From positions 1 to 48,652 of IMG/VR virus record IMGVR_UViG_3300046642_000078: a stretch of 48,652 bases of DNA; one strand, 5' to 3'. Origin of the DNA: a virus. The notes beneath the pieces are model-generated. The model did not search any database. It worked only from the letters and a program-made list of their open reading frames with translations, and was not told the DNA's origin. Position numbers and translations under genes: made by a program. Shown piece by piece: positions 4,038 through 46,107 of this stretch; the stretch's first letter is position 1; each line of letters opens with the position of its first letter.

Positions 4038-4654
4038 GTCGCATATTGGTGGCTTGCGAATATTCCGGGAGAGTCCGGGAGGCGTTCGCTAAACGCGGTC
4101 ATGATGTTATGTCCTGTGACCTACGCCCTACTGAACAACCGGGAAACCACTACCAAGGGGACGTACGAGACGTACTGTACGCGGGCTGGGACATGCTGAT
4201 AGCGCACCCGTACTGTACGTTTAACACATTGGCCGGTATCCGTTGGATGTACCACCCGGAGGATACGCACCTTCCCGCAGAGCAACGCCGTAGGCATCCA
4301 CAGTACCCTAACCGCATGCGAGACTTTGAGGAGGGCGCGGAGTTCTTTAACCTTCTAATGAACGCACCTATTGAGCGCATCTGCCTAGAGAATTCGCAGC
4401 CGCACGGCTTAGCTATGTCCCGCATTGGACGCTATACGCAAGTAGTACAGCCGTGGATGTTCGGAGAGCCTTATACGAAGGGTGCATGTCTGTGGCTAAA
4501 GAACCTGCCAAAGCTGGTAGCTAAAACTAAGAAGTCTGATTTTCCGCGTATCGAAGCAGCATGTCATAACGCCTCACCTGGGCCAGATAGAGAACGGGAA
4601 CGGAGCAGAACCTACGCGGGCATTGCCCAAGCCTTTGCGGAGCAGTGGGGTTGA
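4034..4654 (+). CDS. DNA cytosine methyltransferase-like protein (206 aa)
   Basis: Rossmann-like start ILVACEYSGRVREAFAKRGH (S-adenosylmethionine-binding motif I), then CDLRPTE, DMLIAHPYCTFN in place of the PPC/PCQ catalytic motif IV, and LENSQPHG in place of ENV motif VI. The C-terminal RSRTYAGIAQAFAEQWG is typical of a compact phage family usually annotated as DNA methyltransferase. It is half the length of classical C5 enzymes and lacks a recognisable target-recognition domain. The Pro before Tyr-Cys is unusual, so activity is uncertain. The HNH gene downstream overlaps its last 10 bases. Confidence 0.6.
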   Translation: MSRILVACEYSGRVREAFAKRGHDVMSCDLRPTEQPGNHYQGDVRDVLYAGWDMLIAHPYCTFNTLAGIRWMYHPEDTHLPAEQRRRHPQYPNRMRDFEEGAEFFNLLMNAPIERICLENSQPHGLAMSRIGRYTQVVQPWMFGEPYTKGACLWLKNLPKLVAKTKKSDFPRIEAACHNASPGPDRERERSRTYAGIAQAFAEQWG

Positions 4655-5181
4655 CCTGTTTGGTAGGTAGAACGTTTGGTAAACTAAGCGTTCTAAGTTT
4701 AGCCCGCTCTGATGCTAGACACCGTAAGTACTATCTGTGTAAATGTACGTGTGGTAATGATAAGGTAGTCAATGGGGCGTCTTTGGTTAGTGGAAATACT
4801 AAAAGCTGCGGCTGTCTGTCTAGGGAGGCTAGAGCAGCTACGAGACTTCCCGGAAATGCAAGCGAAATTACAGCAGTTATTTTAGGCTATAAGAGACACG
4901 CTAAAGCACGCGGCTATGTATGGGGTTTATCCAGAGAGCAGGTAGAAGATCTTATAAAGCGTAGTTGTGTCTACTGCGGTACTGAACCGAGTAACATTAA
5001 ATCTACTAAGAACACTATCGCACCACTCCTGTATAACGGAATAGATAGAGTTGACAACCGTATAGGTTACGTGCCGGATAACGTAGCGCCGTGCTGCGCA
5101 CAATGCAATAGAGCTAAGGGAACGCTATCCGCAGCAGAGTTCGTAGGCTGGGCGAATAGAATCGCTGAGCAGTGGGGCTAA
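4645..5181 (+). CDS. HNH homing endonuclease with N-terminal zinc ribbon (178 aa)
   Basis: Zinc-ribbon module CKCTCGNDKVVNGASLVSGN followed by TKSCGCL (about residues 29-55), then an HNH core: CVYCGTEPSN, NGIDRVDNRIGYVPDNV and CAQCNRAKGT (about 113-163). Free-standing homing nucleases of this type cut alleles lacking the gene. It sits between the methyltransferase-like gene and the RNA polymerase, 14 bases before the latter. Its last five codons (AEQWG) repeat those of the upstream gene. GTG start at 4645; TTG at 4651 is an alternative. It is visibly richer in AGA/AGG and A/T than its neighbours. Confidence 0.8.
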   Translation: MGLTCLVGRTFGKLSVLSLARSDARHRKYYLCKCTCGNDKVVNGASLVSGNTKSCGCLSREARAATRLPGNASEITAVILGYKRHAKARGYVWGLSREQVEDLIKRSCVYCGTEPSNIKSTKNTIAPLLYNGIDRVDNRIGYVPDNVAPCCAQCNRAKGTLSAAEFVGWANRIAEQWG

Positions 5182-5195
5182 TTTAACAAGGGACA

Positions 5196-7577
5196 ATGCA
5201 GACAATTCAATCTTACGCAGCACAGCGGGAAGCAGCAACTAAAGTAGAGATTGATAGTATCCCTGCGGTACGTCCCTTTGCCCGTAAGCATGTGGAACGG
5301 CTGCAGGAAAACGGATACAGCACGTTAGTACTTAAGCAGCTTTGCCGTGAGGCGGAGTCTAGCCGCAGAGTGGACAGCGAGCATAGCCTATACGAGCACG
5401 CGGCTAACTTGAACATTGATGCTCTGCAGGACGGGTTAGATACATTCAGGTTAGCGCTGGAGACGGGTAAGCGTACTAAACTCAAGGTCTCCAAGATCGC
5501 GCACTACGGAGGCAGCAGTAACCCGGTTAATACTCTGTCCGTAGAGGACCAGGCTAACGCTACGTGGGATGCTATGGTGTCTGTTATTGGCCGTATGGCT
5601 GATCCAGATAGGCCGCTTAGCGTACAGACGTTAGCAGGCGTGCTAGGTGGCAGGCTGCGTAATTTGACTGGTGGTAAGCCGGAGTACAAGGAGTTAGGCT
5701 ACGAGCGAGCCGCATTATTACTGCTTGATCATTTCATGGTGTCTACGGGATGGCTGGAGGAGCGCTCCGGCGAGTCTCGCATGTGCAGCCACGTACGCAA
5801 ACCTAACACGTACTCACTGGCTGAAAAGTTCATTGAGGAAGTACTAGGCGGCAGCATGGCTGCGGACTTCTCGGAACGTAGGCCTATGCTAGTCCCTCCC
5901 GTGCCTTGGACACCTACGGCAACACACGGCGGCTACCTGCACTCTGGCATCCCCGCAGTACGCGGTAACTCCCGGTCTATCGGGTCTGCTGCAATTGTCT
6001 CCGCACTGAACGCCCTGCAGGCTACACCGTTCCGGGTAAATCAACGCGTGCTAGGTATCGCTGGGAATCTGCAGGCTAACGCGGAGGAGCTTTCTGGAAG
6101 GCTGGTGCTGGGTAGGTATCTAGAAACCCGTCATGACGAGGCGGAGGCTGTACGCAAGGCTAAGACGATTCGTAGCGCGCTGACTATTTCCGCCTTTAGC
6201 TCACTGCAGAATGTTGAGGAGTTCTACTTTCCTTGGAATCTGGATTGGCGGGGCCGTATGTATCCGGCTACCAGCCTAATCAGCCCACAAGGTGCGGACC
6301 TATGTAAAGGCTGCTTAGAGTTTGCGGACGGTACGCCGCTGGGGAAGGAGGGAGCTAAATGGCTGGCTATCCACCTGTGTAACCTGGCTGGAGCAGATAA
6401 GGAGATTGTAGACGGGGAGTACCGGACGCGCACACCGGAGGGGCGGGCAGCGTGGACAAGAAGCATGACCCCGGATATTTTAGAGATAGCCGCAGACCCA
6501 GAGGCTAACCGTGCGTGGCACTTGATAGGCGGATTCGGGCTGCAGAAGATTAAGCGAGGTAGGGTGGTTCCTGTAGCCGTGGATAAGCCTTGGCAGTTTC
6601 TAGCCGCTTGCTTTGAATGGGCAGCATGGGTTGAGGAGGGGGACGGGTTCCGTAGTCGCCTCGCTGGTGCGCTAGATGGTAGCTGCAGTGGCGTACAAAT
6701 GCTGGCGGGTATGACGCGTGACCATTCAGCCGGAACGATGGTTAATCTAGTGCCCGCTCCACGCGGGGACGACTACTACGGGCGTATGGCTGCGGCACTA
6801 TCCCGGAGGCTCTACAACCGCGTAGACGTTGCGGACGAGGGCGAGCTAGCCCACTTGTCGTATTGGTCGGAGCAAACCCTAGACCGCGATCTACTCAAAG
6901 CTCCTAGTATGACTAAGGTCTACAGTGCGGGGGCGTACACATTCGCAGAGCAGGTAAAGGCTAAGACGGGTGCGCCTGAATCTGAGTGCATGTGGTTAGC
7001 AGCACGTATTAACGAGTGCTTCGCAGAGGTAGCGCCCGGTATGTTACTGGCTATGAGTTATCTACAGGCTGTGTCCGACGTACTGACGGAGGAAGGTATT
7101 CCGCTACGCTGGGTAACTCCTGCAGGCTTGCAAGTCGAGCAGGATAGACGGGAGACTAGAACCGTAGTTATTGAAACTCGTCTGTCAGTAGACGCACAAC
7201 GCAAGCAGAGGGACTTTATTATTAATGGGGACAGACTCAGCAAAAAAGGACAGCGAGCAGGCGTAGCACCTAACTTCGTGCATGGCGTGGACGCTTCACA
7301 TATGGCTATGGTCGTTAATGATTTGCATGCTAAGGGCGTACGTTCCTTTTGGATGATTCACGATAGCTTTGGCGCACCGTTCGCACAGTGCGGGGAAGTG
7401 TTCCGCAGCACCCGCGAGCAGTTCGTAGAGCTAATGTCTGGTGATCTATTGCGGGGCTGGACGGAGGCCGTAACGTCTGGGCTGAGTGCAGGGGGTAAGG
7501 CTAAGCTACCTAGCCTGCCAGAGTACGGAGACCTAGACCTTAGCGCGGTACGGGATAGTGTGTATGCGTGGTTCTAA
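5196..7577 (+). CDS. T7-like single-subunit DNA-directed RNA polymerase (793 aa)
   Basis: Complete polymerase domain. FPWNLDWRGRMYPATS near residue 347 is the conserved WRGR block. Motif A is LDGSCSGVQ with catalytic Asp at about 494 (T7 D537). Motif B is KAPSMTKVY with Lys about 568 and Tyr about 576, the same spacing as T7 K631/Y639. Motif C is MIHDSFG with Asp about 723 (T7 D812). It ends in VYAWF, comparable to the FAFA C-terminus of T7. It is about 90 residues shorter than T7 RNAP, mostly N-terminally. Last gene of the early operon; ATG preceded by AAGGGACA. It presumably transcribes late genes, but its promoters were not found. Confidence 0.96.
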   Translation: MQTIQSYAAQREAATKVEIDSIPAVRPFARKHVERLQENGYSTLVLKQLCREAESSRRVDSEHSLYEHAANLNIDALQDGLDTFRLALETGKRTKLKVSKIAHYGGSSNPVNTLSVEDQANATWDAMVSVIGRMADPDRPLSVQTLAGVLGGRLRNLTGGKPEYKELGYERAALLLLDHFMVSTGWLEERSGESRMCSHVRKPNTYSLAEKFIEEVLGGSMAADFSERRPMLVPPVPWTPTATHGGYLHSGIPAVRGNSRSIGSAAIVSALNALQATPFRVNQRVLGIAGNLQANAEELSGRLVLGRYLETRHDEAEAVRKAKTIRSALTISAFSSLQNVEEFYFPWNLDWRGRMYPATSLISPQGADLCKGCLEFADGTPLGKEGAKWLAIHLCNLAGADKEIVDGEYRTRTPEGRAAWTRSMTPDILEIAADPEANRAWHLIGGFGLQKIKRGRVVPVAVDKPWQFLAACFEWAAWVEEGDGFRSRLAGALDGSCSGVQMLAGMTRDHSAGTMVNLVPAPRGDDYYGRMAAALSRRLYNRVDVADEGELAHLSYWSEQTLDRDLLKAPSMTKVYSAGAYTFAEQVKAKTGAPESECMWLAARINECFAEVAPGMLLAMSYLQAVSDVLTEEGIPLRWVTPAGLQVEQDRRETRTVVIETRLSVDAQRKQRDFIINGDRLSKKGQRAGVAPNFVHGVDASHMAMVVNDLHAKGVRSFWMIHDSFGAPFAQCGEVFRSTREQFVELMSGDLLRGWTEAVTSGLSAGGKAKLPSLPEYGDLDLSAVRDSVYAWF

Positions 7578-7632
7578 AATTGTCCCAAAATAATACTTGA
7601 CACAATGAAACTTGAGGACTACTATACATACA
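7578..7632 (+). promoter_or_regulatory. Sigma70-type promoter P1 with upstream GTCCC element
   Basis: TTGACA at 7597-7602, 17-bp spacer, TACTAT at 7620-7625, predicted start near 7632. Upstream, GTCCCAAAATAATAC abuts the -35; nearly the same sequence abuts the -35 of P5 at 35570. It follows the RNA polymerase stop and precedes 7663. Confidence 0.6.
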
Positions 7633-7662
7633 TCAGCAGCACGAACCCAACGGAGCCACAAA

Positions 7663-7815
7663 ATGCACACTTTCCAACTGGTCTTTACCCAATACGGCAA
7701 CTTTGGCCGTAACTACAACCACACTTTCACGGTGCAAGCCGATTCCCTGGAAGCAGCAATTTGCAGCGTAGAGGCTGCTAACCCCAGCCTCTACTTCCGT
7801 GGTGAAACATGGTAA
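7663..7815 (+). CDS. Hypothetical protein, small beta-rich (50 aa)
   Basis: Start chosen at the ATG after CGGAGCCACAA. The frame is open further upstream, but the promoter -10 (7620-7625) lies inside that extension, which rules it out. Sequence begins HTFQLVFTQYGNFGRNYNHT and ends FRGETW, suggesting a short antiparallel sheet. No family recognised. Overlaps the next gene by seven bases. Confidence 0.65.
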   Translation: MHTFQLVFTQYGNFGRNYNHTFTVQADSLEAAICSVEAANPSLYFRGETW

Positions 7816-8713: not shown

Positions 8714-8740
8714 TGCTGGCCCTATTAAATAAATGGTACG

Positions 8741-8792: not shown

Positions 8793-8822
8793 AGGAAGCG
8801 AACAACGATCAATGGAGGGTGT

Positions 8823-8936: not shown

Positions 8937-8964
8937 AGTCTCCCAAGCAACTAAGGAGTACGAA

Positions 8965-9417: not shown

Positions 9418-9430
9418 CTGAGGATTCGAA

Positions 9431-25731: not shown

Positions 25732-26033
25732 GCGAACACAACCGGGCGGAGCCTAGCGAGCAGGCAGACAGCACCCACACTTAGCGGGTCGTCGAATCCC
25801 TCACGGCTAGCGTAGATCGTAGCCAGTACTAAGAGGGTTGCGAGCTTAGCGCGAGGCGGTACTGTGGTTTCGTCCCAATCAGCGGGTGTACTTCCGTCCG
25901 CTGCGGTAGTGCCAACGTAATCCGTAACGATATCGCTGGCTTGCGTGATTTTCTCCGCGAGGTCTACATCAGAGAACGTGTCGTCAATACGAAGGTGAAA
26001 CTTAGCTTCCGCTAGGGTTACTAAATCAGCCAT
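25728..26033 (-). CDS. HK97 gp6-like head-tail connector (101 aa)
   Basis: Helical protein starting ADLVTLAEAKFHLRIDD, the recognisable gp6-family N-terminus, followed by EKITQASDIVTDYVG and LATLLVLATIYASREGF. Rings of this protein attach to the portal. Directly follows the portal gene with an eight-base overlap. Confidence 0.85.
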   Translation of the reverse strand: MADLVTLAEAKFHLRIDDTFSDVDLAEKITQASDIVTDYVGTTAADGSTPADWDETTVPPRAKLATLLVLATIYASREGFDDPLSVGAVCLLARLRPVVFA

Positions 26034-27399
26034 TAGAATCGCCCTCCGTAGCGTTAGCCGTAGGTTTCTTTGCGGGCTTATCTGCAGGCTTCATAGTCTC
26101 TCCTGCTGGCGTAGTAGTGCCGCCGGAAGCATCCGTAATAGCTTGCCGTTCCTTAAGCATAGACAGCGGAATCCACTGGGCCTGGAGGTAAGGAGTCTCG
26201 CCACCCTCAACAGGAGGAAGACCAACCGTAGCGCGTGCTTCGTTAGGCGACATAACGCCGGAGCTAACAGCCTGTGCATTGGCTGCGTGCTGTGCGGCTG
26301 CGTCCATACGCATAAGCCCGTTCGTATCAATCTCCGTTCCTTGTCCATCGGGAACGCCTAGACCATCGTCTAGAAGTAGCTCCAAGCCCTCAATGTGAGC
26401 TTGCAAGCAATCGCTGTAATACATGCCTTCGTAGATTGCCGCGCTAGCTGCAGGGCGCGATGCCGTCTCAGCGCCTAGCTTATGCAAGGGTACGTGATAG
26501 CAACGTGCGATGTCTTCCACAGACCATTTAAGCTGCTCAATAAGCTGTGCATCCGTGCTAGTCATAGTCAAGGGCGAATAGGCAAGCCCACCAGCCAATA
26601 CGGCTACGCTTCCCGTACCTGTGCCTGAGTGTGCAGTAGCCCAAGCGGTCTTAGCTGCTGCGGCTTGTTCCGCTGAGATTTGGGCGGGTGCCGTGAGTAC
26701 GCCAGAAGGCCGCGCGGCGTTGCCAAAGAACGCAGCAGAATTAACCGCAATGTTGCTCCCCATCGTAGCGGAGACCGCGCAAGCTACCAGCGGAGACACA
26801 CCCACAAGAGGATGCCACGGGCAGATGCCGCGATCATGAATAATGTCACTGGCCGGAATTACGACAGCCTCTAGCGGGGATACTTGCAAGGGCGACATTG
26901 TGACTTGATAGAAAATCGAGTCGTCCGGAGCAACCATAGGTATAACGTAACGCGGGTTAAGAATCTCCATAGCGATAACGGCACCAATGGAATTTCTAGT
27001 CTTAAGAACGTACGTGTTACCCCAGAGCAATTTACTCGACAGCCACAGCTTAATGAATTGCTGACGTGTCTGGTAATGGTTAGGCTTGTTCAGTACTTTC
27101 GTGTAACGGGGTGCGGGCGACTCCTGCCAGACTGCATCGATCTGCTTAACGTACTTTATACGCAGCTTGGAAATGTCGGAGGAGATAAGGTCTACGCATG
27201 CGAAGACGGGGCCGGAGGCAAGCATCCCGTTCTGGCCGATAAGACTCTTGTTCTCCTGAAAAGCTCCTGTATACGGCTCCCTTACGAATAGGCCGTCGCC
27301 GCCTGGGAACATGGTGGCCGACAGACCAACACCCAGCGGGGTTTTACCGGGCTTCCTTCGGAAGTACCCCTTATTAATACTCAGCCCAAATAGTTTCAT
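26026..27399 (-). CDS. Portal protein, HK97 family (457 aa)
   Basis: Dodecameric vertex through which DNA is packaged and ejected. Family blocks: GPVFACVDLISSDISKL, LLWGNTYVLKTRN, HDRGICPWHPLVGVSPL and EDIARCYHVPLHKLG. The start is placed at ATG 27399, which overlaps the HNH stop (ATGA) and follows AGGGAGACGGC. The longer frame, 19 residues upstream, would run into the HNH gene. C-terminus is Lys/Pro/Thr-rich. Confidence 0.92.
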   Translation of the reverse strand: MKLFGLSINKGYFRRKPGKTPLGVGLSATMFPGGDGLFVREPYTGAFQENKSLIGQNGMLASGPVFACVDLISSDISKLRIKYVKQIDAVWQESPAPRYTKVLNKPNHYQTRQQFIKLWLSSKLLWGNTYVLKTRNSIGAVIAMEILNPRYVIPMVAPDDSIFYQVTMSPLQVSPLEAVVIPASDIIHDRGICPWHPLVGVSPLVACAVSATMGSNIAVNSAAFFGNAARPSGVLTAPAQISAEQAAAAKTAWATAHSGTGTGSVAVLAGGLAYSPLTMTSTDAQLIEQLKWSVEDIARCYHVPLHKLGAETASRPAASAAIYEGMYYSDCLQAHIEGLELLLDDGLGVPDGQGTEIDTNGLMRMDAAAQHAANAQAVSSGVMSPNEARATVGLPPVEGGETPYLQAQWIPLSMLKERQAITDASGGTTTPAGETMKPADKPAKKPTANATEGDSNG

Positions 27400-28082
27400 G
27401 CCGTCTCCCTGTCCGGCATATCCGGCCATGTACGATTGCCCTTCGCGATATTCCACGAACCGAGCATTACGTTAAGGTTAAATTCATTATGTAGGCCACA
27501 GACAAGATTTGACTGCAGCGGTACTTTATGGTCTACATGGAAGGGGATACCTAGCTCCCGCGAGAGATAACCGGCTAGCATGTAGTATTGCCTGCACGCT
27601 GTCTCGGATGCCCACGCGGGCAGTGCGTTCTTTTTAGCTGCAACCCGTTTTCTGGAATATGACGCGTACAAGGACGGGTTCTCCTCCCGGTGCCTAGCGA
27701 TAGCTGCGCGGCGCTTCTCTGGATTGGCCTTTCTGTATGCAGCCTCCCTAGATAGAATGGCGTCCCTGTCAGTTACTCTAAGTGTAGCTTGATAGGCTAG
27801 TCGGTGCTCTCTATTAAGGACGTAACGCTCTTTAGCCTTACTGCTAATGACCGCAGAATTAGCGGCGTGGTATTCACGCTTATCTTTAGCAATAACAGCA
27901 GCATTGCGTTCCCGGTACTCTTTACGGCTAAGATAAACCTTCTCTTTGTTTCGCTCTGCGTAAAGCTTAGACTCGATACTTCTGCAGGGTTTGCAAACAG
28001 GGCGAAGACCGCCCTTTGCCTTTGGGTGCGGAGAAAAGTTATTTTCGTCTTTCTCTAGGCTGCACTTCGTACAGACCTTCAC
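27396..28082 (-). CDS. HNH homing endonuclease (228 aa)
   Basis: N-terminal zinc pair (VCTKCSLEKDENNF, VCKPCRS; residues 3-34), a long Arg/Ala/Glu-rich helix with repeated EYR/REH elements (about 50-150) for DNA contact, and a C-terminal HNH core FHVDHKVPLQSNLVCGLHNE followed by NLNVMLGSWNIAKGNR. It lies between the capsid-side small genes and the portal. GTG start overlaps the upstream TGA, and its TGA overlaps the portal ATG. Its last codons (ACG GCA TGA) mimic those of the upstream gene (ACG GCG TGA). Confidence 0.85.
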   Translation of the reverse strand: MKVCTKCSLEKDENNFSPHPKAKGGLRPVCKPCRSIESKLYAERNKEKVYLSRKEYRERNAAVIAKDKREYHAANSAVISSKAKERYVLNREHRLAYQATLRVTDRDAILSREAAYRKANPEKRRAAIARHREENPSLYASYSRKRVAAKKNALPAWASETACRQYYMLAGYLSRELGIPFHVDHKVPLQSNLVCGLHNEFNLNVMLGSWNIAKGNRTWPDMPDRETA

Positions 28083-29848: not shown

Positions 29849-30457
29849 TTAATATTTACGATACGAAAGGTCAAGCTTGACCAGACGCGGGGTTTTTACA
29901 ACGGTGGTTTCGACAGTGGTAGCCACCGCTGCCGCTTCTACTACGGGTTTTTCGCCCGTTACTTCGACCGCTTCCGCAGTCTCAGCTAATGCAAGACTCT
30001 TGAACGCGGTAATTACTGCTTCCGGGTTAGCCGGGATTGCGACTAGCGACAGTTCGTGGACGTTAGCCTTTGTGAAGCGCACGCCCTTACCCTCTCCGAG
30101 TAGTTCATACTCATCTGGTACAAACCCGATCGAAACGGCTTTGATAAGACCGCTCTTGACGCTATGCCATGCTTCATCGCAGCGGTCTTTTACAACCCCC
30201 GCTTCGTCTACCTTGGCAATCTTGGCGCGAAAAGGTAAACCCTTCTCCGTAGGCGCTCCGAATTGAACCGTGCCTACCGGGGAATGGTGGTCGTGGTTCA
30301 GAAGAAGGGGCGCGTCCTTTGCGAAGGTGAGTCCAAGGGGTTCTACGATATCTTTAACCCTGTCTAATGCAGGGGTAGACGCCATCCCTTCAATCTCTCT
30401 GGAATCCTCATTAAGTGACTTGATGGTGATAGCGGAAAATGCTGTAGTGCTAGCCAT
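29849..30457 (-). CDS. Prohead protease, HK97 family (202 aa)
   Basis: Serine protease that cuts the scaffold from capsid subunits before expansion. LLLNHDHHSPVGTVQFG (catalytic His near residue 55), LIKAVSIGFVPDEYE (Ser near 103) and HELSLVAIPANPEAVI near 129 are the diagnostic blocks. The start is ATG 30457, inside the last codons of the HNH gene, which reads the same bases as Asn-His-Gly. C-terminus is a Val/Ala/Thr-rich linker. Confidence 0.92.
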   Translation of the reverse strand: MASTTAFSAITIKSLNEDSREIEGMASTPALDRVKDIVEPLGLTFAKDAPLLLNHDHHSPVGTVQFGAPTEKGLPFRAKIAKVDEAGVVKDRCDEAWHSVKSGLIKAVSIGFVPDEYELLGEGKGVRFTKANVHELSLVAIPANPEAVITAFKSLALAETAEAVEVTGEKPVVEAAAVATTVETTVVKTPRLVKLDLSYRKY

Positions 30458-30953
30458 GATTAGCAAATGCTCCGTGGAGGCTTTCACGGTATGCTTGCAA
30501 CGCGGCTACCGCTAACGCGGAGTCCGAGAAGTAGCCTAGGTGCTTAGCCTTGTTATTGATAGAAATAGTGGCCCGCCACTTTCCTTTTGTTCTGCTCCAG
30601 CCAACACCCTTAATACCGGATGTGTTGTGGCGGGAAATAGGCAGGTTGTACATGTTCTGCGCCTTAGTGGCGGGTCTCATGTTGTCCCAGCGGTTGTCTG
30701 CACGGTCCAAGTTCTTATGGTCAATGCAGGACGTGGGCCATTCTCCAGTCATGTACAGCCATATGAGGCGGTGCGCCTGATATTTGCCTCCCGCCAGACC
30801 TACACGGATGTACCCGCAAGTAGTATCTACAACGCCTGCGGGCTGTCCCACTACCGTTTTGCTGCCTACCTTTATCCGCCACGTCAATACACCTGTATCG
30901 GGGCAATAGTTGAATACTTCCCGGAGGTACGCCTGCGTAATTTCTGTTTTCAT
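30450..30953 (-). CDS. HNH homing endonuclease with AP2 DNA-binding domain (167 aa)
   Basis: HNH half: AHRLIWLYMTGEWPTSCIDH, NLDRADNRWDNMRPATKAQN (about residues 60-103). AP2-type half: NTSGIKGVGWSRTKGKWRA then ISINNKAKHLGYF (about 110-145). It ends LHGAFANHG and the bases for NHG contain the protease start codon. Inserted between terminase large subunit and protease. Paralogous to the genes at 33434 and 39281. Confidence 0.88.
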   Translation of the reverse strand: MKTEITQAYLREVFNYCPDTGVLTWRIKVGSKTVVGQPAGVVDTTCGYIRVGLAGGKYQAHRLIWLYMTGEWPTSCIDHKNLDRADNRWDNMRPATKAQNMYNLPISRHNTSGIKGVGWSRTKGKWRATISINNKAKHLGYFSDSALAVAALQAYRESLHGAFANHG

Positions 30954-30965: not shown

Positions 30966-32564
30966 TCAATAAACCATTGGCACGCCAACATCTTCATTTC
31001 CTGCCGCGAGTACAACCGCACCGGCAGCCATAACTAAGGCAACAATTCCGTCAATACGGCCTGTGGCTTTCTGTTTATCCAACTTACGATTACCCGCTGG
31101 GTCTTTGACTACTACGCCGTTAGCAGCACACATTGTTAAAACGGGGTGCATACCATGAGCAACTTGGGAGTTAAGTAGCCACTCTTCCAACACATCCATA
31201 GCGGGGGAAATTGACATGAAACCTTGTCCGAACTCCACGAGAGGCAGCAAGCCGCCTTCTGCAGCCGGTAACTCGGTATCGATGCCTATATCAGCGAACT
31301 CTTTCTTTAGAAGATCGATTCGCCAACGGTCAAACGCTATAGAGTGGATGCTTAGGCCGTAGCAAATTTCGGCAATGTCGCGGGCCACGTACTCATAATC
31401 CACCGTCTTACCCGGAGTCGTCCGAATGTAGCCTTGCTTAGCCCATACGTCATAGGGTGAGCGGTCTTTGTGTGAGCGGTCTTTAAGCCCGTCTTCAGGC
31501 GTCCATACGTACGTGTGTACTTGCCAGATGCCCGCTACCTTGCCCACCAGCACCAACGCGGTTAAGTCGGTACGTGCCGATAAGTCAAGGCCGCCGTAGA
31601 CGGGCGTATGTCGGTCAAACGGTAAGGGTATAGCTGCGTTAGCCTTCCAAACATCACGGGAGATAAATGGGGAATTGACGGATACGCGCTGGTTTAGCAG
31701 CAAGTTCCGTACAGTGTTCTCCATAGACGGCATACGGGCCGCCTGCTTCATCTGCTCCTCTAGGTCCGGTAGCGAACGGAATAGACCAAGAGCCGGGTTA
31801 GCATCAGCCCACGCCTGCTTATCGTCTAACTCCGCGTTTTCGTCCGCACAGTACAGGTGAGACACAATGCGCGGGTCTCCGCTCGCTTCAGCGTCGTCTA
31901 GCCAGATAGAGAGCAAGTCCGCATCTGACGCAGCTTGCGTGCTAAGGGCGATTAGGAGCGGGTTAGCGTGTGCGCCCTGTGACGTGGTGATAGCATCAAT
32001 AAAATCTGACTGCGGCCCTACTATCTGCCCAATCTCGTCTAGGATTGCCAGTACAGGGCTAAGGCCGTGGGCCGTCTTGGCTTCAGCAGATAGCGCGCGG
32101 TACTCTACATTCAATTCCCGACCTACCAAGCGCTTACCGGAGGGCAAGATACTGACTCGCTTTTGTAGAGATGGGGATAACTGAACCATCTTTGAGGCCA
32201 GACTAAACACTAGCGCAGCCTGATCCCTTGACATAGCGCCGGAAACAATCTGGCTGTTTAGCTTAGCTTCAGGCCCGACCAAATGGACTAGCAGGATAAA
32301 TGCAATCGTTGCTGATTTTGCATTTTTGCGTGCGATGGAGAATAGCGCGCGGCGTGTAATCGCAACGTTGTCATAGACCGAGTATAGGAATGCTTCCTGG
32401 AAGTCGGCTAGCTTTACCTTCTGTCCTACTAAGGCCCCTTCAGGGATAACGCAATTGCGTTCCACGAAGTACATAGCCTGTTCGGCGCGGGTCAAATCAT
32501 CGTAAGGCAGGCCACGCCATTCCCGTAATTTCGGGATTGGGCCACATCGATACGGGTTCTTCAA
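30966..32564 (-). CDS. terL: Terminase large subunit, HK97-type (532 aa)
   Basis: Packaging ATPase and nuclease. ATPase: SIARKNAKSATIAFILLVHL is the deviant Walker A (residues about 76-95), LAILDEIGQ the Walker B (about 171), ALSTQAASDADLLS the coupling motif. The nuclease part has GGLDLSARTDLTALVLVG with the metal Asp near residue 330 and KATGRIDGIVALVMA near the C-terminus. Overlaps the small subunit stop. Confidence 0.93.
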   Translation of the reverse strand: MKNPYRCGPIPKLREWRGLPYDDLTRAEQAMYFVERNCVIPEGALVGQKVKLADFQEAFLYSVYDNVAITRRALFSIARKNAKSATIAFILLVHLVGPEAKLNSQIVSGAMSRDQAALVFSLASKMVQLSPSLQKRVSILPSGKRLVGRELNVEYRALSAEAKTAHGLSPVLAILDEIGQIVGPQSDFIDAITTSQGAHANPLLIALSTQAASDADLLSIWLDDAEASGDPRIVSHLYCADENAELDDKQAWADANPALGLFRSLPDLEEQMKQAARMPSMENTVRNLLLNQRVSVNSPFISRDVWKANAAIPLPFDRHTPVYGGLDLSARTDLTALVLVGKVAGIWQVHTYVWTPEDGLKDRSHKDRSPYDVWAKQGYIRTTPGKTVDYEYVARDIAEICYGLSIHSIAFDRWRIDLLKKEFADIGIDTELPAAEGGLLPLVEFGQGFMSISPAMDVLEEWLLNSQVAHGMHPVLTMCAANGVVVKDPAGNRKLDKQKATGRIDGIVALVMAAGAVVLAAGNEDVGVPMVY

Positions 32565-33433: not shown

Positions 33434-33925
33434 CTAGCCGTGGTTAGCATACTCACCATGTAGCTTGGTTCTACCTGCACGTACAGCGGTAGCTGCAGCA
33501 TCTAACGTACTATGACAACCGAATGAGTACGTCTTGCCATTAGCAGTAACACGAGCCACATACTTACCTTTAATAACATATACACCTTTAACACCTGTAG
33601 TGTTGGTGCTAGGTGTCTTAGCGTTGCAGGCGTTCTGTGTCTTGGTAGCTAACCGGAGATTATCAATACGGTTGTCTGTTGGTATTGTGTTCTTATGATC
33701 TACCAACACGATTGGTATGTAACCATAGACGTACAACCATGCTAGTTGGTGGCATGAGTAGTTGATACCATCTATCATGATAGACAGATAACCACCTCTA
33801 ACCACAGGTGAACCAGCAATACTACCTATTTTAGTTCTACGTGCTTTAGGTTTAATCCATATGAATATACCTGTATTAGGATCATAGGATAGATGTTCTT
33901 TAAGTTTATCTTGTGTGAGTTGCAT
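33434..33925 (-). CDS. HNH homing endonuclease with AP2 domain (163 aa)
   Basis: Same family as 30450 and 39281: SYDPNTGIFIWIKPKA, HQLAWLYVYGYIPIVLVDH, DNRIDNLRLATKTQN, NTTGVKGVYVIKGKYVA, and C-terminal LHGEYANHG. Unlike its paralogs it does not abut the next gene; terS starts 411 bases on. The coding sequence is much richer in A/T than flanking phage genes, indicating separate origin. Confidence 0.86.
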   Translation of the reverse strand: MQLTQDKLKEHLSYDPNTGIFIWIKPKARRTKIGSIAGSPVVRGGYLSIMIDGINYSCHQLAWLYVYGYIPIVLVDHKNTIPTDNRIDNLRLATKTQNACNAKTPSTNTTGVKGVYVIKGKYVARVTANGKTYSFGCHSTLDAAATAVRAGRTKLHGEYANHG

Positions 33926-34599: not shown

Positions 34600-35517
34600 T
34601 TACTCAGAAGTGCCCAGAATCCTCGCTAGCGGGTGCAAAGTCTTGCTTCCAATGATGCTCCAAAGTTGCTGCATAGATAATCCCTGAGCAAGCATCCGAC
34701 ATAATGCTTCGTATCTAAGATCGTTGAAATGTAAATCAGCAATCTTGGCGCGTTCCACAGTACGGATAAATGCTCGCTGCAACGCCATAGACGATACGCC
34801 GTCAAATACGAGACCGTTAGCCTTAATACCTCTGTTCTTAAGGACTTCTAATAGTCGGTCTGAAATCGGGATTACACGAACGCCAGCCTTACCATTAACT
34901 CTGATTACCTTGTTATCTAGGTCCACATCAGACCAGTCTAGTTTGATAATCTCATGCTGCATTAATGCTGTATCTAACGCAACGATTATGGCGTCTCTGA
35001 GATAACCACCACGTGTATTAGCTGCTTCGGCTAGGATAGCTTGTTCCTCATAATCGGGAATTCTACGTTCTCTAGTTTGGGTCTGTTTGGCGTAAGCTGC
35101 GATTACCGGATTACGGGTTAGGCGAATATCGAACTCCCTACGTGCGTACTCGATAGCAGCCTGTAGCGTTGCGGTGACTTCGTTAGGTTCTGCTGAGAAC
35201 GCGGTAACGTCCTCCGGCTGTACATCCGTGATTATCATATTCCACAGGCTAGACTTAGCCATATCGGCTACAGGAAGTTGCACCTTATCCGGCATGCTCA
35301 TTTTGTACATAGAGAGCAAGTCACCTACTGACAGTAGCTCCGCAGCGTCCGTTAGCTGGTCTTGGCCTGCATTTAGGGATGCTTCCTTATCTTCGGCCCA
35401 AATCTCCGCGTCTTCCTTAGTGTCGAATGTGCGCGAGTACGTCGGGTGTCCCAATCGTCTAACCTTTGCCTGCCACTTTGAGCCGTGCTGGCTCTTGCGT
35501 TCGCTGATAGTCGCCAT
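34600..35517 (-). CDS. Degenerate tyrosine recombinase-like protein (305 aa)
   Basis: Clear relative of short proteobacterial integrases: the N-terminal arm domain SERKSQHGSKWQAKVRRLGH, central VAAYAKQTQTRERRIP-like linker, and a full catalytic-domain fold. The active site is eroded: the first Arg (usually in TGMRRGEI) is replaced in TALMQHEIIKLDW; HxLRH has become HFNDLRYEALCRM (second His to Tyr); and the GH...RY block is IIGSKTLHPLARILGTSE, with the nucleophilic Tyr missing. It probably cannot recombine DNA but may still bind att-like sites. It has its own promoter (P5). Confidence 0.8.
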   Translation of the reverse strand: MATISERKSQHGSKWQAKVRRLGHPTYSRTFDTKEDAEIWAEDKEASLNAGQDQLTDAAELLSVGDLLSMYKMSMPDKVQLPVADMAKSSLWNMIITDVQPEDVTAFSAEPNEVTATLQAAIEYARREFDIRLTRNPVIAAYAKQTQTRERRIPDYEEQAILAEAANTRGGYLRDAIIVALDTALMQHEIIKLDWSDVDLDNKVIRVNGKAGVRVIPISDRLLEVLKNRGIKANGLVFDGVSSMALQRAFIRTVERAKIADLHFNDLRYEALCRMLAQGLSMQQLWSIIGSKTLHPLARILGTSE

Positions 35518-39280: not shown

Positions 39281-39787
39281 ATGCTAACTCAGGGCAGACT
39301 TAAGGAAGTCTTGGAGTACTGCCCTGAAACGGGCGTATTCACTTGGCGGATGCGAGTTGCTAACTGCGTTCGCGTTGGCGACGTGGCGGGAAGCCTGCAT
39401 AAGGAAGACGGTTACATAAACATACGTGTAGACGGGCGGGCGTATCCTGCACAGCGACTAGCGTGGTTGTTTATGACTGGGGAGTGGCCTACCGCCTTTG
39501 TAGATCATGAGGACACGGTACGCAGTAATAACGCGTGGACAAATCTAAGGCAAGCAACAAACACACAGAATCAACACAACGCGGCTCTTAGTTCTAGTAA
39601 TACATCTGGAGTGAAGGGCGTTCATTGGTTAGTTGAATATGGGTGTTGGCGGGCTAGGGTAACGGCTTATGGAAAGAGAATTGAAGTAGGTCGGTTTGCT
39701 ACGTTGGAAGATGCAGACGTGGCTATCAGGGCCGCACGAGAACAGTTACACGGAGAATTTGCTAACCATGGAGACTCGCCAGGATGA
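39281..39787 (+). CDS. HNH homing endonuclease with AP2 domain (168 aa)
   Basis: Same family as 30450 and 33434: YCPETGVFTWRMRV, AQRLAWLFMTGEWPTAFVDH, NNAWTNLRQATNTQNQ, NTSGVKGVHWL and LHGEFANHG. The coding bases for NHG supply the ATG of the primase gene, which it overlaps by 20 bases; the protein continues four residues (DSPG). The sequence around its own start (TAACTATG, then ACTC) resembles that around the primase start (TAACCATG, then ACTC). Confidence 0.87.
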   Translation: MLTQGRLKEVLEYCPETGVFTWRMRVANCVRVGDVAGSLHKEDGYINIRVDGRAYPAQRLAWLFMTGEWPTAFVDHEDTVRSNNAWTNLRQATNTQNQHNAALSSSNTSGVKGVHWLVEYGCWRARVTAYGKRIEVGRFATLEDADVAIRAAREQLHGEFANHGDSPG

Positions 39788-40795: not shown

Positions 40796-41031
40796 GCAAG
40801 ACATTCGTGTATGACCGATTCGACTGTACTAACGGCGGCTCGCAGCATTGTTACGGATGCTACGGGATGGACCCGTGCTCAGATGGAGACTACGTAAAGG
40901 CACAAGACGCCATTAACCGCGAGGCCGTATTACAAGCGCAGATTAGGACGCTGGAGACGCAGCTTAAGGACGCACGCACCGCGCTAGCTCTAAAAGGTGT
41001 AAGTATCCAAAGGGAGGATGATTGCGGATAA
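40792..41031 (+). CDS. Hypothetical Cys-rich/coiled-coil protein (79 aa)
   Basis: N-terminal half has CTNGGSQHCYGCYGMDPC, four Cys and one His that may bind metal; the C-terminal half is a coiled coil (LQAQIRTLETQLKDARTAL). Its 3' end overlaps the HNH start. No family recognised. Confidence 0.6.
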   Translation: MSKTFVYDRFDCTNGGSQHCYGCYGMDPCSDGDYVKAQDAINREAVLQAQIRTLETQLKDARTALALKGVSIQREDDCG

Positions 41032-41468
41032 TTAAAGCTAGCAAGGGAGAGGAGATTGCCGTAGATGCTACGGACTACGAATGGTTATCCGGTTACGCTT
41101 GGTGGATTAGCGGCTACGGTTACGCGGCAACTACCTTTAAGCGTGCCGGAGTAAAGCGCACTCTCTACATGCACAAAATGTTGTGCCCTGACGCAACTAA
41201 GGTAGACCACAGGGACACCAACAAACTAAACAACCGTAGAGGAAACCTACGCCCCGCGACCCACTCGCAGAACATGGCGAACAAGGGTGTTAGCACGCGG
41301 AGTGCGCTAGGTATAAAAGGCGTCTCCATGGATGGGAAGCGCTATAGGGCACAGATACGGCGCGACGGTACAACCGCAAATCTAGGGCGTTACGATACAG
41401 CGGAGGAAGCTAAGGCTGCTTACGACAGAGCGGCATTAGAGATATTTGGAGAGTTCGCCCATGCTTGA
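41022..41468 (+). CDS. HNH homing endonuclease with AP2-like domain (148 aa)
   Basis: YEWLSGYAWWISGYGYAATT, LYMHKMLCPDATKVDHRD, LNNRRGNLRPATHSQNMAN (HNH), then LGIKGVSMDGKRYRAQIRRD and AKAAYDRAALEIFGEFAHA. Start TTG after AGGGAGG. Its last three codons read CAT GCT TGA and contain the helicase ATG. A more distant relative of the three ANHG proteins. Confidence 0.85.
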   Translation: MRIIKASKGEEIAVDATDYEWLSGYAWWISGYGYAATTFKRAGVKRTLYMHKMLCPDATKVDHRDTNKLNNRRGNLRPATHSQNMANKGVSTRSALGIKGVSMDGKRYRAQIRRDGTTANLGRYDTAEEAKAAYDRAALEIFGEFAHA

Positions 41469-42744: not shown

Positions 42745-43013
42745 TGAGTGTCTACGTTGACGACATGGCAGCCGCGTACGGTCGTATGGTCATGTGCCAT
42801 ATGGTTGCTGACACTGAGGACGAGTTGCACGCGATGGCAAGCAAGATAGGCGTTGCGCGGAAGTGGCACCAGAAGCCCAACACACCACACAGCCATTACG
42901 ACGTATGCAGGGCAATGCGCGTACGGGCGGTCAAACTCGGAGCCATTGAAATCAACCGCGCGAAATTGGGCGAGATAATCAAAACCAAACGCCTACAGAC
43001 TAAGGAGGCTTAA
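42744..43013 (+). CDS. DUF4031-like protein (89 aa)
   Basis: SVYVDDMAAAYGRMVMCHMV then DELHAMASKIGVARKWHQ and HSHYDVCRAMRVRAVKLGAI match the DUF4031 family of phage and bacterial proteins of unknown function. Overlaps neighbours by one base on each side. Confidence 0.8.
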   Translation: MSVYVDDMAAAYGRMVMCHMVADTEDELHAMASKIGVARKWHQKPNTPHSHYDVCRAMRVRAVKLGAIEINRAKLGEIIKTKRLQTKEA

Positions 43014-43306
43014 TGCGTTATGCGATTGTGAAAACCCAGTGTGACGACTTAACAGACCCGGAGCAACCGCTCCACGCACTCAGCAAAGGTACATTAGTTC
43101 GTATCCTTGGTGTATCCGCGCTACCCGTTGGTCTCATTGTCGAGACTATGTACCCGGTATTCGGTACGTGGGACATGCGGTATATGCACCGCACACAGGT
43201 GCTAGACCCTTCAGACCTTTACGAGTTCCCCGCGTACTCCGGTAAGTTTATCGAACGCTTGGCTAAGGTGCTGCAGAGTTCCCGTGAGTTCCTAGGTATT
43301 GCGTAA
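43013..43306 (+). CDS. Hypothetical protein (97 aa)
   Basis: Beta-rich N-terminus (YAIVKTQCDDLTDPEQPL, LSKGTLVRILGVSALPVGL) and helical C-terminus. One-base overlap with each neighbour. No family recognised. Confidence 0.65.
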   Translation: MRYAIVKTQCDDLTDPEQPLHALSKGTLVRILGVSALPVGLIVETMYPVFGTWDMRYMHRTQVLDPSDLYEFPAYSGKFIERLAKVLQSSREFLGIA

Positions 43307-43428
43307 TGGGTAGCCTTATGGAGGCTGTCTACACCGTATGCCTGCTAATTCAATTGCCGTGGATGGTTAGTGGTACTGCATATCTTGCATACGAGGTATG
43401 GGCGGCTCTTTATAAGGATGAAGAATGA
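43306..43428 (+). CDS. Small membrane protein (40 aa)
   Basis: ATG overlaps the preceding TAA by one base; stop overlaps the next ATG. One hydrophobic segment (VYTVCLLIQLPWMVSGTAYL). No family recognised. Confidence 0.5.
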   Translation: MGSLMEAVYTVCLLIQLPWMVSGTAYLAYEVWAALYKDEE

Positions 43429-43580
43429 TGGACCGAATTAAAGTAGCTTTCACTATTGACGTGGACGACAGCACCGAGTCTTGGACCGAGGGCGACACAG
43501 AGGTACTGCACGAGTGTGTGCGCCAGTCCCTAGACGTGTGGGGAGACATTAGAGGGTTCTCCGTGGAGGTCCAACAGTGA
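43425..43580 (+). CDS. Hypothetical small acidic protein (51 aa)
   Basis: Coupled at both ends by four-base overlaps. Acidic sequence (FTIDVDDSTESWTEGDTEVL) with beta-alpha-beta appearance (then VRQSLDVWGDIRGFSVEV). No family recognised. Confidence 0.5.
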   Translation: MMDRIKVAFTIDVDDSTESWTEGDTEVLHECVRQSLDVWGDIRGFSVEVQQ

Positions 43581-43699
43581 TTATTTTCTGTGCAATCGTG
43601 CGCGGCGTTGTGTGGTGTACCGCAGTAGCAGGAGCGGCGCTAGTGTTATACGGGTGCTATGACCTTGCGTGTATGGCGTTTGATGGGCGGAAGGAATGA
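43577..43699 (+). CDS. Small membrane protein (40 aa)
   Basis: GTG start overlapping the preceding TGA and stop overlapping the ligase ATG. One transmembrane segment with several Cys (GVVWCTAVAGAALVLYGCY). No family recognised. Confidence 0.48.
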   Translation: MIIFCAIVRGVVWCTAVAGAALVLYGCYDLACMAFDGRKE

Positions 43700-44601
43700 G
43701 TATTCCTAATGGTTTCCGCCCCAATCTTGCAGCAACACTCACCAAGCCGGAGCTTATCAAGTTCCCCGTGTGGGTCTCGCCAAAGATTGACGGTATCCGC
43801 AGCGTGGTGTTTGGCGGGGTTGCGTATAGCCGTAGCCTTAAGCCTATTCCAAACAAAAAGGTACAGGCGTTCTTTGACAGACACGCGGACGTACTAGACG
43901 GCTTGGACGGTGAGTTAGTCGTAGGAGACAAGACGGACGCTAACTGTATGCAAAACAGTATGGCGGTCATGCGTAAAGACGGGGAGCCTAGCTTTTGCTT
44001 CTACGTGTTTGACGTGTACGACCCGCGCGCCGAATACGAGGAACGCCTCACGATTATTGAGACGGCTATGCAGCATTTCATGACGGACGACCCTAGGATT
44101 AACCTAGTTTCGCAGCACCTGGCAAACAACGCGGACGACTTGGCAACACTAGAGGCGCAATTCCTTGAGCGTGGTTACGAGGGCCTAATGATTCGTGACC
44201 CGCAAGGCCACTATAAGTGCGGACGCAGCACGGAACGCGAGGGCGGCTTAGTCAAGGTGAAGCGCTTCACGGATGCGGAGGCGGAGGTTATCGGGTTTGA
44301 GGAGGAAATGAAAAATGAAAATACAAGTAAGACTAACGCCCTTGGAAATACCGAGCGTAGCAGCGTTGCTAGTGGACTTGTCGGCAAAGGTACGCTGGGC
44401 GCATTGCGTTGTAGATCTGCTGAGGGCATCGAATTCAACATCGGTACAGGATTCACGGCAGACCTACGCCGCACTCTATGGAACGACCGTGAGTCTCTTA
44501 CGGGACAGTTCGCAAAGTTTAAGAGCTTCGACCACGGCGTAAAGGATGCGCCCCGCCATCCTGTGTTTCTCGGATTTAGACACAAGGATGATATGTCATG
44601 A
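43696..44601 (+). CDS. ATP-dependent DNA ligase, T7-like (301 aa)
   Basis: Nucleotidyltransferase motif I WVSPKIDGIRS with adenylated Lys30, motif III LDGELVVG, motif IIIa FCFYVFDVYD, motif IV GYEGLMIRDP and motif V GGLVKVKRF, followed by an OB-like domain (NIGTGFTADLRRTLW). Seals Okazaki fragments. Minimal size, as for T7 ligase. Middle of the replication operon. Confidence 0.92.
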   Translation: MSIPNGFRPNLAATLTKPELIKFPVWVSPKIDGIRSVVFGGVAYSRSLKPIPNKKVQAFFDRHADVLDGLDGELVVGDKTDANCMQNSMAVMRKDGEPSFCFYVFDVYDPRAEYEERLTIIETAMQHFMTDDPRINLVSQHLANNADDLATLEAQFLERGYEGLMIRDPQGHYKCGRSTEREGGLVKVKRFTDAEAEVIGFEEEMKNENTSKTNALGNTERSSVASGLVGKGTLGALRCRSAEGIEFNIGTGFTADLRRTLWNDRESLTGQFAKFKSFDHGVKDAPRHPVFLGFRHKDDMS

Positions 44602-45107
44602 TTTATAAAGAACTAAATGATGTACTAGAGTCGCTTCCGTTTGAGGCTATCCTGGCTGGTGGCTGCGTGCGGGATACGGTGCTTGGGAAGGATATCAAGG
44701 ACTACGACGCGTACGCCTGGAACACTTCTGACACTCGTATTAAGTTGTACGAAGCGTATCCGGACCATGTTCTAGCCGATAACGAACTCGGTTATGCTGC
44801 GTGTGCCTTTGTAGTCTACAACACAGGCGCATTTGCCGCTGACGGTAAGCCTATTCAAGTAATGCTTTTGGATAAAGTGGAGATTGGGGACTGTGCCACT
44901 CCGCAGGAGTACGTAGATAAGCATTTCGACTTTGGTATCTGTAAGGCAACGTACCACAAGCTGGGCGGCTTGCATCTAACCGAGGCGTTCAATCAAGACG
45001 TAGCTAACAAGACAATCACTTTTTACCAGTCAGACCTTAACTGGCAAAACCCGGAAAGAGTAGAGCGTATGTTAGCTAAGTTCCCTGACTATACGTTGGT
45101 GAAATGA
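44598..45107 (+). CDS. Nucleotidyltransferase-like protein (169 aa)
   Basis: AILAGGCVRDTVLGKDIKDYD (residues about 18-38) is the GG...RD...D-x-D signature of the CCA-adding/poly(A) polymerase head fold. The remainder gives the palm strands (IQVMLLDKVEIG) and a short helical end. It lacks the long C-terminal tRNA-binding region of cellular CCA enzymes. Substrate unknown; phage copies may repair tRNA or modify nucleic acid or protein. Confidence 0.75.
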   Translation: MIYKELNDVLESLPFEAILAGGCVRDTVLGKDIKDYDAYAWNTSDTRIKLYEAYPDHVLADNELGYAACAFVVYNTGAFAADGKPIQVMLLDKVEIGDCATPQEYVDKHFDFGICKATYHKLGGLHLTEAFNQDVANKTITFYQSDLNWQNPERVERMLAKFPDYTLVK

Positions 45108-45670
45108 CGCAACCACAGCTAAAGGTAACGCCCAATATCCTAACGTACCAAGGGCGATACTTCGATTTCCTTGACCCGCAAGTTAAGGACGTGTCTATCG
45201 TAGACATTGCTACCGCGCTATCCCGTATCTGCCGCTTCACTGGCCATACCTCCTGCTTCTACAGTGTCGCGCAGCATAGCGTTACGGTGTCCCGGATTGT
45301 CCCTCCTGAGTTCGCGCTACAAGGGTTGCTGCACGATGCAGCGGAGGCTTACCTAGGCGACGTATCAACGCCGCTTAAGCAGCTTATCCCAGAGTACAAA
45401 GTGATAGAGCACAGGGTAGAGCGGGTTATCTGCCAGGCGTTCGCGCTTCCGTTCCCGCTCGATCCTAGTATCAAGCAAGCGGATTTGCGGATGCTGGTTA
45501 CGGAGAAGCGGGATTTGATGCCGCGTGCTAACAAGAGTTCTAGCGGAACGGACGAGGTAGCGTGGTTCCCGTTCGCTGGTGTTGAGCCGCTGGAGGAAAG
45601 CATAGAGCCTATGTCAGCGTCTAGGGCTAAGCGGGCATTTCTGGATCGGTACGCGGAGTTAGTGGGTTGA
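45104..45670 (+). CDS. HD-domain phosphohydrolase, YfbR/5'-deoxynucleotidase-like (188 aa)
   Basis: Metal ligands of the HD fold are visible: RFTGHTSCFYSVAQHSVTVS with His, GLLHDAAEAYLGDVSTPLK with the His-Asp pair near residues 75-76, and Asp near QADLRMLVTEKRDL. Such enzymes dephosphorylate dNMPs or hydrolyse dNTPs. Together with the MazG-like and dATP/dGTP-hydrolase-like proteins it makes three nucleotide-pool enzymes. Four-base overlaps with both neighbours. Confidence 0.8.
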   Translation: MTQPQLKVTPNILTYQGRYFDFLDPQVKDVSIVDIATALSRICRFTGHTSCFYSVAQHSVTVSRIVPPEFALQGLLHDAAEAYLGDVSTPLKQLIPEYKVIEHRVERVICQAFALPFPLDPSIKQADLRMLVTEKRDLMPRANKSSSGTDEVAWFPFAGVEPLEESIEPMSASRAKRAFLDRYAELVG

Positions 45671-46107
45671 ATACGCCGTGCATTCTGCACACCGGAGGAT
45701 GGTTCACAGACAAAGGTTACGGGATGCTCCGGGTAGGCACGGAGAGAAAGAAAGTTCGTGCTCATAGGTGGGCGTACTGCGTACACAACAAGTGCACATT
45801 GGCAAGTATTGAAGGGCTTTCTGTTCGCCATAGTTGTGATAACCCACCCTGTGTAAATCCTGAGCACCTTCTGTTAGGTTCTCACCTAGACAACATGCGC
45901 GATAAGAAGGAAAGAGGTAGGGCACCCGGAGCGAAGGGAGAGGCTAACGCAACCGCAAAACTAACGGCTGCACAGGTGCGGGAAATCAGAACTACATGCG
46001 TAAAGCGTTCAAAAGAGTTTAGCGCCGCCGCCCTTGCCCGTAAGTTCGGAGTAACTAAATCATTGGTTTGTATGATTCTGGCCGGTAAAGGGTGGAGTCA
46101 CATCTAG
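45667..46107 (+). CDS. HNH homing endonuclease with helix-turn-helix tail (146 aa)
   Basis: HNH core: RAHRWAYCVHNKCTLASIEG, LSVRHSCDNPPCVNPEHLLL, GSHLDNMRDKKERGR (residues about 32-85), typical of phage HNH_3 nucleases. The C-terminal NATAKLTAAQVREIRTTC and AALARKFGVTKSLVCMIL forms an HTH for site recognition. TTG start overlaps the HD gene stop; it ends eight bases before the DNA polymerase start and contains part of its upstream sequence. Confidence 0.87.
   Translation: MNTPCILHTGGWFTDKGYGMLRVGTERKKVRAHRWAYCVHNKCTLASIEGLSVRHSCDNPPCVNPEHLLLGSHLDNMRDKKERGRAPGAKGEANATAKLTAAQVREIRTTCVKRSKEFSAAALARKFGVTKSLVCMILAGKGWSHI

Follow-up and report, generated by a model that had tools for sequence, protein, structure and literature searches.

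The stretch of DNA analysed here (the window, 48,652 bases; IMG/VR virus record IMGVR_UViG_3300046642_000078) comes from a phage that has a T7-type RNA polymerase (RNAP) and an HK97-type portal, protease and capsid module, and that also codes for a family A DNA polymerase, a primase and a helicase. It contains seven HNH genes, six at the starts of core genes and a seventh (33434-33925) that is not. A reading of the letters made before any database search (the sequence-only reading) had placed six HNH genes directly upstream of six core genes, and open reading frames (ORFs), Pfam and PHROG confirmed both the coordinates and the offsets. The genes concerned are the following.

4645..5181, plus strand: HNH gene (endonuclease VII-like), between g4034 and RNA polymerase; PHROG 1035/374; absent in the relative 47472_051
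5196..7577, plus strand: T7-type RNA polymerase; tblastn to phage RNA polymerases
26026..27399, minus strand: portal protein; PF04860; its ATG at 27399 overlaps the HNH stop (ATGA)
27396..28082, minus strand: HNH gene upstream of portal; PHROG 26577/1035; empty 12-bp junction in the relative L008
29849..30457, minus strand: prohead protease; PF04586
30450..30953, minus strand: AP2-type HNH gene, between terL and protease; HNH_3, phrog_99
30966..32564, minus strand: upstream neighbour of the protease HNH gene, labelled terL (terminase large subunit) from sequence and position/synteny only
33434..33925, minus strand: fourth AP2-type HNH paralogue, no usable ATG, next called ORF 411 bp away; HNH_3, phrog_99
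39281..39787, plus strand: AP2-type HNH gene upstream of primase; HNH_3, phrog_99; same layout in the relatives L085 and L120
39768..40589, plus strand: DNA primase; phrog_47
41022..41468, plus strand: HNH-AP2 gene upstream of helicase; PF00847, PF13392
41461..42744, plus strand: DnaB-type helicase; PF03796, PF13481
45667..46107, plus strand: HNH gene upstream of DNA polymerase; phrog_59/6254; its stop TAG lies within a TAGGAG Shine-Dalgarno sequence
46116..48524, plus strand: family A DNA polymerase, GTG start at 46116; sequence matches, synteny

Each of the six core-start HNH genes is a reading frame of its own and matches PHROG HNH/endonuclease VII families. Pfam HNH_3 is matched by the genes at 30450, 39281 and 41022 (the last with AP2 in addition) and slightly below the cut-off by that at 45667; the genes at 4645 and 27396 have no Pfam match but do match PHROG endonuclease VII/HNH families. 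Family scans place 30450, 39281, 33434 and 41022 in the AP2-type HNH_3/phrog_99 group, and the first three can be aligned through a DH...N...N HNH_3 motif followed by an NTSGxKGV AP2-like region. The sequence-only reading had counted three AP2-HNH paralogs and so missed the fourth; its remark that Asn-His-Gly codons supply the ATG of the next gene (CATGG) in two of them is right for protease and primase, the helicase HNH gene having CATGC in His-Ala codons. An intron- or intein-encoded homing endonuclease was considered and rejected, as the core genes are uninterrupted ORFs and the HNH genes sit between genes.

Named phages are distant (the top DNA polymerase match, 63%, is Burkholderia phage JG068), and as megablast against them returned only a single 125-bp match, DNA-level relatives were drawn from IMG/VR. 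This database holds a group of close relatives, the best of which is 47472_051 (contig IMGVR_UViG_3300047472_000051), with RNAP, portal, protease and DNA polymerase proteins 84-95% identical to those of the window and helicase and primase merely 57-63% identical. HNH genes were detected among the relatives by profiles of the window's own four HNH families, other families not being counted, and the AP2-HNH search was limited to the domain, an earlier iterative hidden Markov model having drifted to the DNA polymerase exonuclease subunit.

Aligning the junctions with those of HNH-lacking relatives, we found that 47472_051 has the same two flanking genes side by side, with no HNH gene between them, at RNAP (gap of 15 bp), portal (12 bp), protease (9 bp) and DNA polymerase (9 bp); the empty protease junction (9 bp) is seen in L008 and the empty DNA polymerase junction (9 bp) in L104. 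Since these junctions are empty in close relatives, the HNH genes are insertions, and an ancestral state fixed at all sites is excluded. HNH genes are absent at the primase and helicase junctions of relatives too, but the upstream gene differs there. At the RNAP site, an 11-bp repeat flanks the HNH gene:

4640..4650, plus strand: direct repeat GAGCAGTGGGG, left copy, made of the upstream gene end and the first HNH codons
5167..5177, plus strand: direct repeat GAGCAGTGGGG, right copy, within the HNH C-terminus EQWG* region

In empty relatives, the upstream gene natively ends in the same EQWG* as this HNH protein, and the first codons of the HNH gene rebuild that C-terminus, a pattern that looks like a duplication of the target end.

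Junctions are also reused. The protease site holds an HNH orthologue with 84% amino acid identity in L002, L010 and L011 and other AP2-HNH genes in L238, L240 and L245, and the DNA polymerase site holds a 78% identical orthologue in L190. The starts of helicase, DNA polymerase and primase each hold more than one HNH family across the relatives; as an example, the helicase junction carries an AP2 HNH gene in the window and in L084/L125 and a DNA polymerase-type HNH gene in L091, L111, L161 and L167. HK97 has an HNH protein that acts with terminase, and the HNH genes of the window might similarly be working parts of the packaging or replication machinery, co-transcribed and co-translated with it: they adjoin portal, protease, primase, helicase and polymerase genes, and HNH packaging cofactors are known from other phages. 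We regard this as highly improbable, given that close relatives have the same core genes without the HNH genes and that the same AP2-HNH family adjoins unrelated genes (terminase, polymerase, primase, glycosyltransferase and RusA-type resolvase families). The narrower candidate of an HK97 gp74-type HNH gene, fixed in the packaging module, was rejected because it is absent from close relatives that share the portal, protease and terminase-side genes.

The preference for hallmark genes that the sequence-only reading had seen did not hold up: outside the window, 15/575 hallmark starts are occupied vs 13/684 other starts (P=0.45). The six genes of that reading taken alone give 14/372 vs 14/887 (P=0.02), but they were chosen post hoc. 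HNH genes also stand at the starts of unassigned genes in relatives, and occupied non-hallmark junctions include those of the window genes at 18, 1007, 1952, 3135, 8247, 20238 and 28288.

The DNA around the HNH genes is unusually divergent. Within 100 bp of them, identity to 47472_051 is 78% vs a mean of 88% at 50 control junctions (P=0.001, n=5 sites), and over 500-bp flanks it is 81% vs 87.5% (P=0.003). At the protease site, the divergent tract extends for about 400 bp on the core side and about 200 bp on the other, with identities mostly above 90% beyond; at the DNA polymerase site it covers about 650 bp on the core side. Near flanks best match HNH-bearing relatives at 3/6 sites, namely L002/L010/L011 on the upstream side of the protease HNH gene, L120 and L085 at primase, and L189 and L190 at DNA polymerase. 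At a greater distance, the empty relative gives the best match for the core side of DNA polymerase (93%) and for the protease HNH gene on its terminase side (85%); at primase, the longest distal match is to L107 (88% over 316 bp) and the empty relative matches at 95% over 169 bp. Homing co-conversion would leave such a flank pattern, and mosaicism could mimic it.

Mosaicism is widespread in the comparison of the window with its relatives, and ordinary homologous recombination that shuffles gene blocks could therefore have moved the HNH genes passively, at block edges and without any cutting, as the core flank of helicase, closest to an HNH-free relative, would also allow. We consider this unlikely: beside the HNH genes, identity falls below that of control junctions (P=0.001 to 0.008), the best match of three near flanks changes to HNH-bearing relatives, and unrelated HNH families occur in the same junction. 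Moreover, the protease HNH gene, with a nonsynonymous divergence (dN) of 0.10 and a synonymous divergence (dS) of 1.34 from its L002 orthologue, is by this measure under strong purifying selection; for the DNA polymerase HNH gene dN is 0.16 and synonymous sites are saturated. The sequence-only reading is supported in its homing view: the empty junctions of relatives, the reuse of the same junctions by other families and the divergent flanks speak for recent, homing-like insertions.

The HNH genes lie very close to the genes that follow them, at +14 bp for RNAP and +8 bp for DNA polymerase, and overlap them by 4 bp (ATGA) at portal, 8 bp at protease, 20 bp at primase and 8 bp at helicase. The ribosome site and the start of four core genes (portal, protease, primase and helicase) are inside HNH genes, and a fifth ribosome site, the TAGGAG of DNA polymerase, overlaps the HNH stop codon TAG. 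The embedded signals are the following.

27405..27410, minus strand: AGGGAG, portal Shine-Dalgarno within HNH Arg-Glu codons
30455..30457, minus strand: protease start ATG in HNH His-Gly codons (CATGGCTAG)
30470..30473, minus strand: GGAG in HNH codons, protease Shine-Dalgarno, 12 nt before the ATG
39752..39755, plus strand: GGAG in HNH Gly-Glu codons, primase Shine-Dalgarno
39768..39770, plus strand: primase start ATG in HNH His-Gly codons (CATGG)
41448..41451, plus strand: GGAG in HNH Gly-Glu codons, helicase Shine-Dalgarno, 9 nt before the ATG
41461..41463, plus strand: helicase start ATG in HNH His-Ala codons (CATGC)

Comparison with empty relatives indicates that the core gene has often received a new start instead of keeping its own. 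An empty primase gene such as that of L082 begins AAGGAGCGCGA-ATGGATGATTGG; where an HNH gene is present this native ATG is gone and the start is within the NHG or NDG codons of the HNH gene, the junction reading ...CATGGAG(N)GATGATTGG in the window and in L085 and its GATGG equivalent in L120. The helicase start is ATGAGC, GTGAGC or TTG in empty relatives and ATGCTTGAA, from HNH His-Ala, in the window. The protease start ATGGCTAGC is made in the window by the HNH codons His-Gly-stop; L011, with the orthologous protease HNH gene, retains a separate TAAGGAAAACGAATG leader. The native portal AAGGAGACCT-ATG is present in L224, and the first portal codons of the window differ from those of the nearest empty relative. 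The proposal that the nucleases keep the downstream start intact is wrong in detail: the start is external to the HNH gene for RNAP and DNA polymerase alone, primase, helicase and protease have lost their own start and take a new one from the last HNH codons, and the first portal codons differ. Translational coupling of HNH and core gene is plausible, and the synonymous-codon test below lends it indirect support.

Among the relatives, about a dozen have a DNA polymerase without ATG, GTG or TTG at the aligned start, where ATA is found after a well-spaced Shine-Dalgarno (AAGGAGGGCTGAC-ATA); such loci include L192, L193, L194, L196, L197, L198, L201, L208, L114, L185 and L082. Helicase genes seemingly starting with ATA, ATT, ATC or CTG occur among L126, L116, L167, L156, L161 and L148, and near-cognate starts in replication genes of these relatives are possible.

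The overlaps themselves, which the sequence-only reading had singled out, are unremarkable, since 32/56 (57%) of the non-HNH same-strand neighbour pairs in the window overlap too. In a set of 95 AP2-HNH genes, taken from many phages, and 2,115 control genes, an overlap of 5-45 nt with a close next gene was found for 15/59 AP2-HNH genes vs 286/1040 controls (P=0.88). Embedded starts could then be accidents of compact packing, any insert overlapping its neighbour and the Gly-Glu codons being unselected, and these overlap frequencies are what such an account predicts; what speaks against it is the choice of codons in the AP2-HNH tail.

AP2-HNH proteins commonly end in HGEFxNHG whether the next gene is close or not, the Gly-Glu pair being encoded by GGNGAR and the His-Gly pair by CATGG or CACGG. 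For the codon test, we used 84 genes recovered by degenerate motif scans, in which all Gly codons were allowed, together with loci in hand, and called a gene open when the embedded ATG starts a frame of at least 60 codons with no second ATG nearby. Gly is encoded by GGA/GGG in 24/25 open cases vs 14/52 of those in which the ATG opens no gene or is absent (P=3e-9), and the Glu codon is GAG in 24/25 open cases vs 17/52 otherwise (P=7e-8). With similar sequences removed, the Gly GGA/GGG counts become 21/22 vs 14/47 (P=2e-7), and with all ambiguous cases taken as open they become 26/32 vs 14/52 (P=1e-6). Of the remaining Gly codons in these genes, 45% are GGA/GGG, from which 9.9/22 would be predicted where 21 were observed. 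The His codon had no effect in this test (P=0.46), and Phe and Asn had weak effects. A first version of the test (ORF of at least 80 amino acids; 24/30 vs 12/39, P=8e-5) was discarded because it miscalled genes that have a second in-frame ATG as well as short real genes. The genes downstream of embedded starts include large terminase, a primase/helicase-like protein, a RecE-like exonuclease, RusA-type resolvase families and a glycosyltransferase.

As the GGAG-making wobble bias is found only where the ATG opens a gene (24/25 vs 14/52) and exceeds the genes' own codon use, it implies, at the level of codon statistics, selection for dual coding, and the accident of packing becomes a distinctly doubtful explanation. 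AP2-HNH genes whose CATGG is not a start (L347, L349, L350, L366, L375, L396, L409 and similar) often read CATGGAGNNNNATAATG; here the His-Gly codons seem to provide the ribosome site (GGAG) for an ATG that overlaps the stop codon of the HNH gene, which would be another type of embedded signal.

The same layout is found, as independent cases, in named phages. In Salmonella phage Skate (MH321493), an AP2-HNH gene (55-567) precedes the large terminase, and the ribosome-binding site (RBS) annotated for terminase by the depositor (546-549; start at 560) sits in the HNH Gly-Glu codons, with an 8-nt overlap and the CATGG start in the His-Gly codons; phage group and target gene differ from those of the window and the annotation makes no comment on the arrangement. 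The same terminase layout is present in KFS-SE2 and related Salmonella, Klebsiella and Escherichia phages; in the HNH-free relatives Vi II-E1, SB28, Bas77 and seszw, the sequence upstream of terminase is another one and about the first 30 bases of the gene are different. An NNG version precedes DNA polymerase in Hafnia phage SPARTY and Erwinia phage Prophecy; phiEa104 and vEam_PM_21 have a different AP2-HNH gene, a separate leader and different first DNA polymerase codons.

Taken together, these observations make it probable that free-standing HNH homing genes of several families invaded the gene junctions and that the tail of the AP2-type genes delivers the start of the next gene. The nucleases would cut HNH-free junctions or nearby DNA, and double-strand-break repair from HNH-bearing relatives probably inserted the HNH genes, co-converting a few hundred bp of flank. 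In the AP2-type tail HGEFxN(H/N)G, Gly-Glu (GGRGAR) would act as the Shine-Dalgarno sequence and the last codons (C-ATG-G or A-ATG-G) as the next start, such that one homing event would bring both the nuclease and a working start for the gene on which it landed. Translation of the core gene would then begin within the HNH gene and might be coupled to that of the nuclease. Because ribosome site and start are embedded in the HNH gene, its clean deletion would probably silence the phage's own gene; precise loss would be harmful, which should favour retention. Whether the HGEFxN(H/N)G tail goes further and is a portable translation-start cassette, kept as protein and start signal at once, that evolved in unrelated phages ahead of genes for primase, helicase, protease, terminase and DNA polymerase, and that leaves an essential gene with no start but the one in the parasite, whose clean loss is thereby prevented, we hold to be an evenly balanced question.

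Several points weigh against this homing interpretation. The RNAP site has no divergent tract on its core side, the best near-flank match at helicase (L082) carries no HNH gene, and the flank test rests on five or six sites, where ordinary mosaic recombination could mimic the pattern. Upstream neighbours vary among relatives at primase and helicase, which makes the empty junction less clean there, and with overlapping genes normal in this genome overlap alone proves nothing. Finally, the open and closed classes of the codon test are defined by ORF length and not by proven start sites.

Two further observations concern the wider gene content. One 416-codon open frame of L120 (14993-16244) joins an AP2-HNH gene to a probable homologue of the DNA polymerase exonuclease subunit of the window (2344-3135), which suggests an in-frame fusion. 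The window also encodes, at 34600-35517 on the minus strand, a tyrosine recombinase (Phage_integrase, PF00589) beside its own T7-type RNA polymerase, and the phage is possibly temperate.

The free-standing homing genes of T4 (seg, mob) are promoter-poor, lie between phage genes, show flank co-conversion and overlap their neighbours, and promoters of downstream essential genes embedded in the nuclease gene were proposed to favour its retention (PMC2988022). The window resembles T4 in that nuclease genes lie between phage genes and a signal of the downstream essential gene is embedded in the nuclease gene; unlike T4, with its embedded promoters and upstream-gene overlap, it embeds the downstream Shine-Dalgarno and start in a conserved protein motif, carries a synonymous-codon signature and involves the AP2/HNH_3 family. 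Several AP2-type HNH genes per genome, variable among relatives, are a trait shared with the Xanthomonas phages Xp10, OP1 and Xop411, whose HNN-AP2 endonuclease genes are dispersed and were proposed to spread randomly and independently of sequence (PMC2248197); sharing of start codons or ribosome sites was not found in the text of that paper. Barth et al. (2023, PMC10448857) described homing genes of the T5orf172 and IPA-HNH families that lie near the genes for polymerase, terminase and capsid and mark boundaries of genetic exchange; that study differs from ours in its neighbourhood scale of 3.25 kb and in its families, and junction anatomy and translation signals do not appear in the sections of it that were compared.

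Searches of open-licence papers turned up no embedded start at the level of translation that has a codon signature. This embedding is the new part, promoter embedding in homing genes being already known from T4; the homing interpretation is likely, and the dual-coding start is its interesting part. Xp10 also has a T7-type RNA polymerase. Annotators should be aware that a terminase, primase, helicase or polymerase gene may have its start within the nuclease gene that precedes it, and with the codon signature the idea can be examined in the sequences of thousands of phages. Once a homing gene is fixed its loss is expected, and the persistence of such genes is an old question; if the proposal is true, an HNH gene that holds the sole ribosome site and start of an essential gene would have its DNA kept even when the nuclease is useless.

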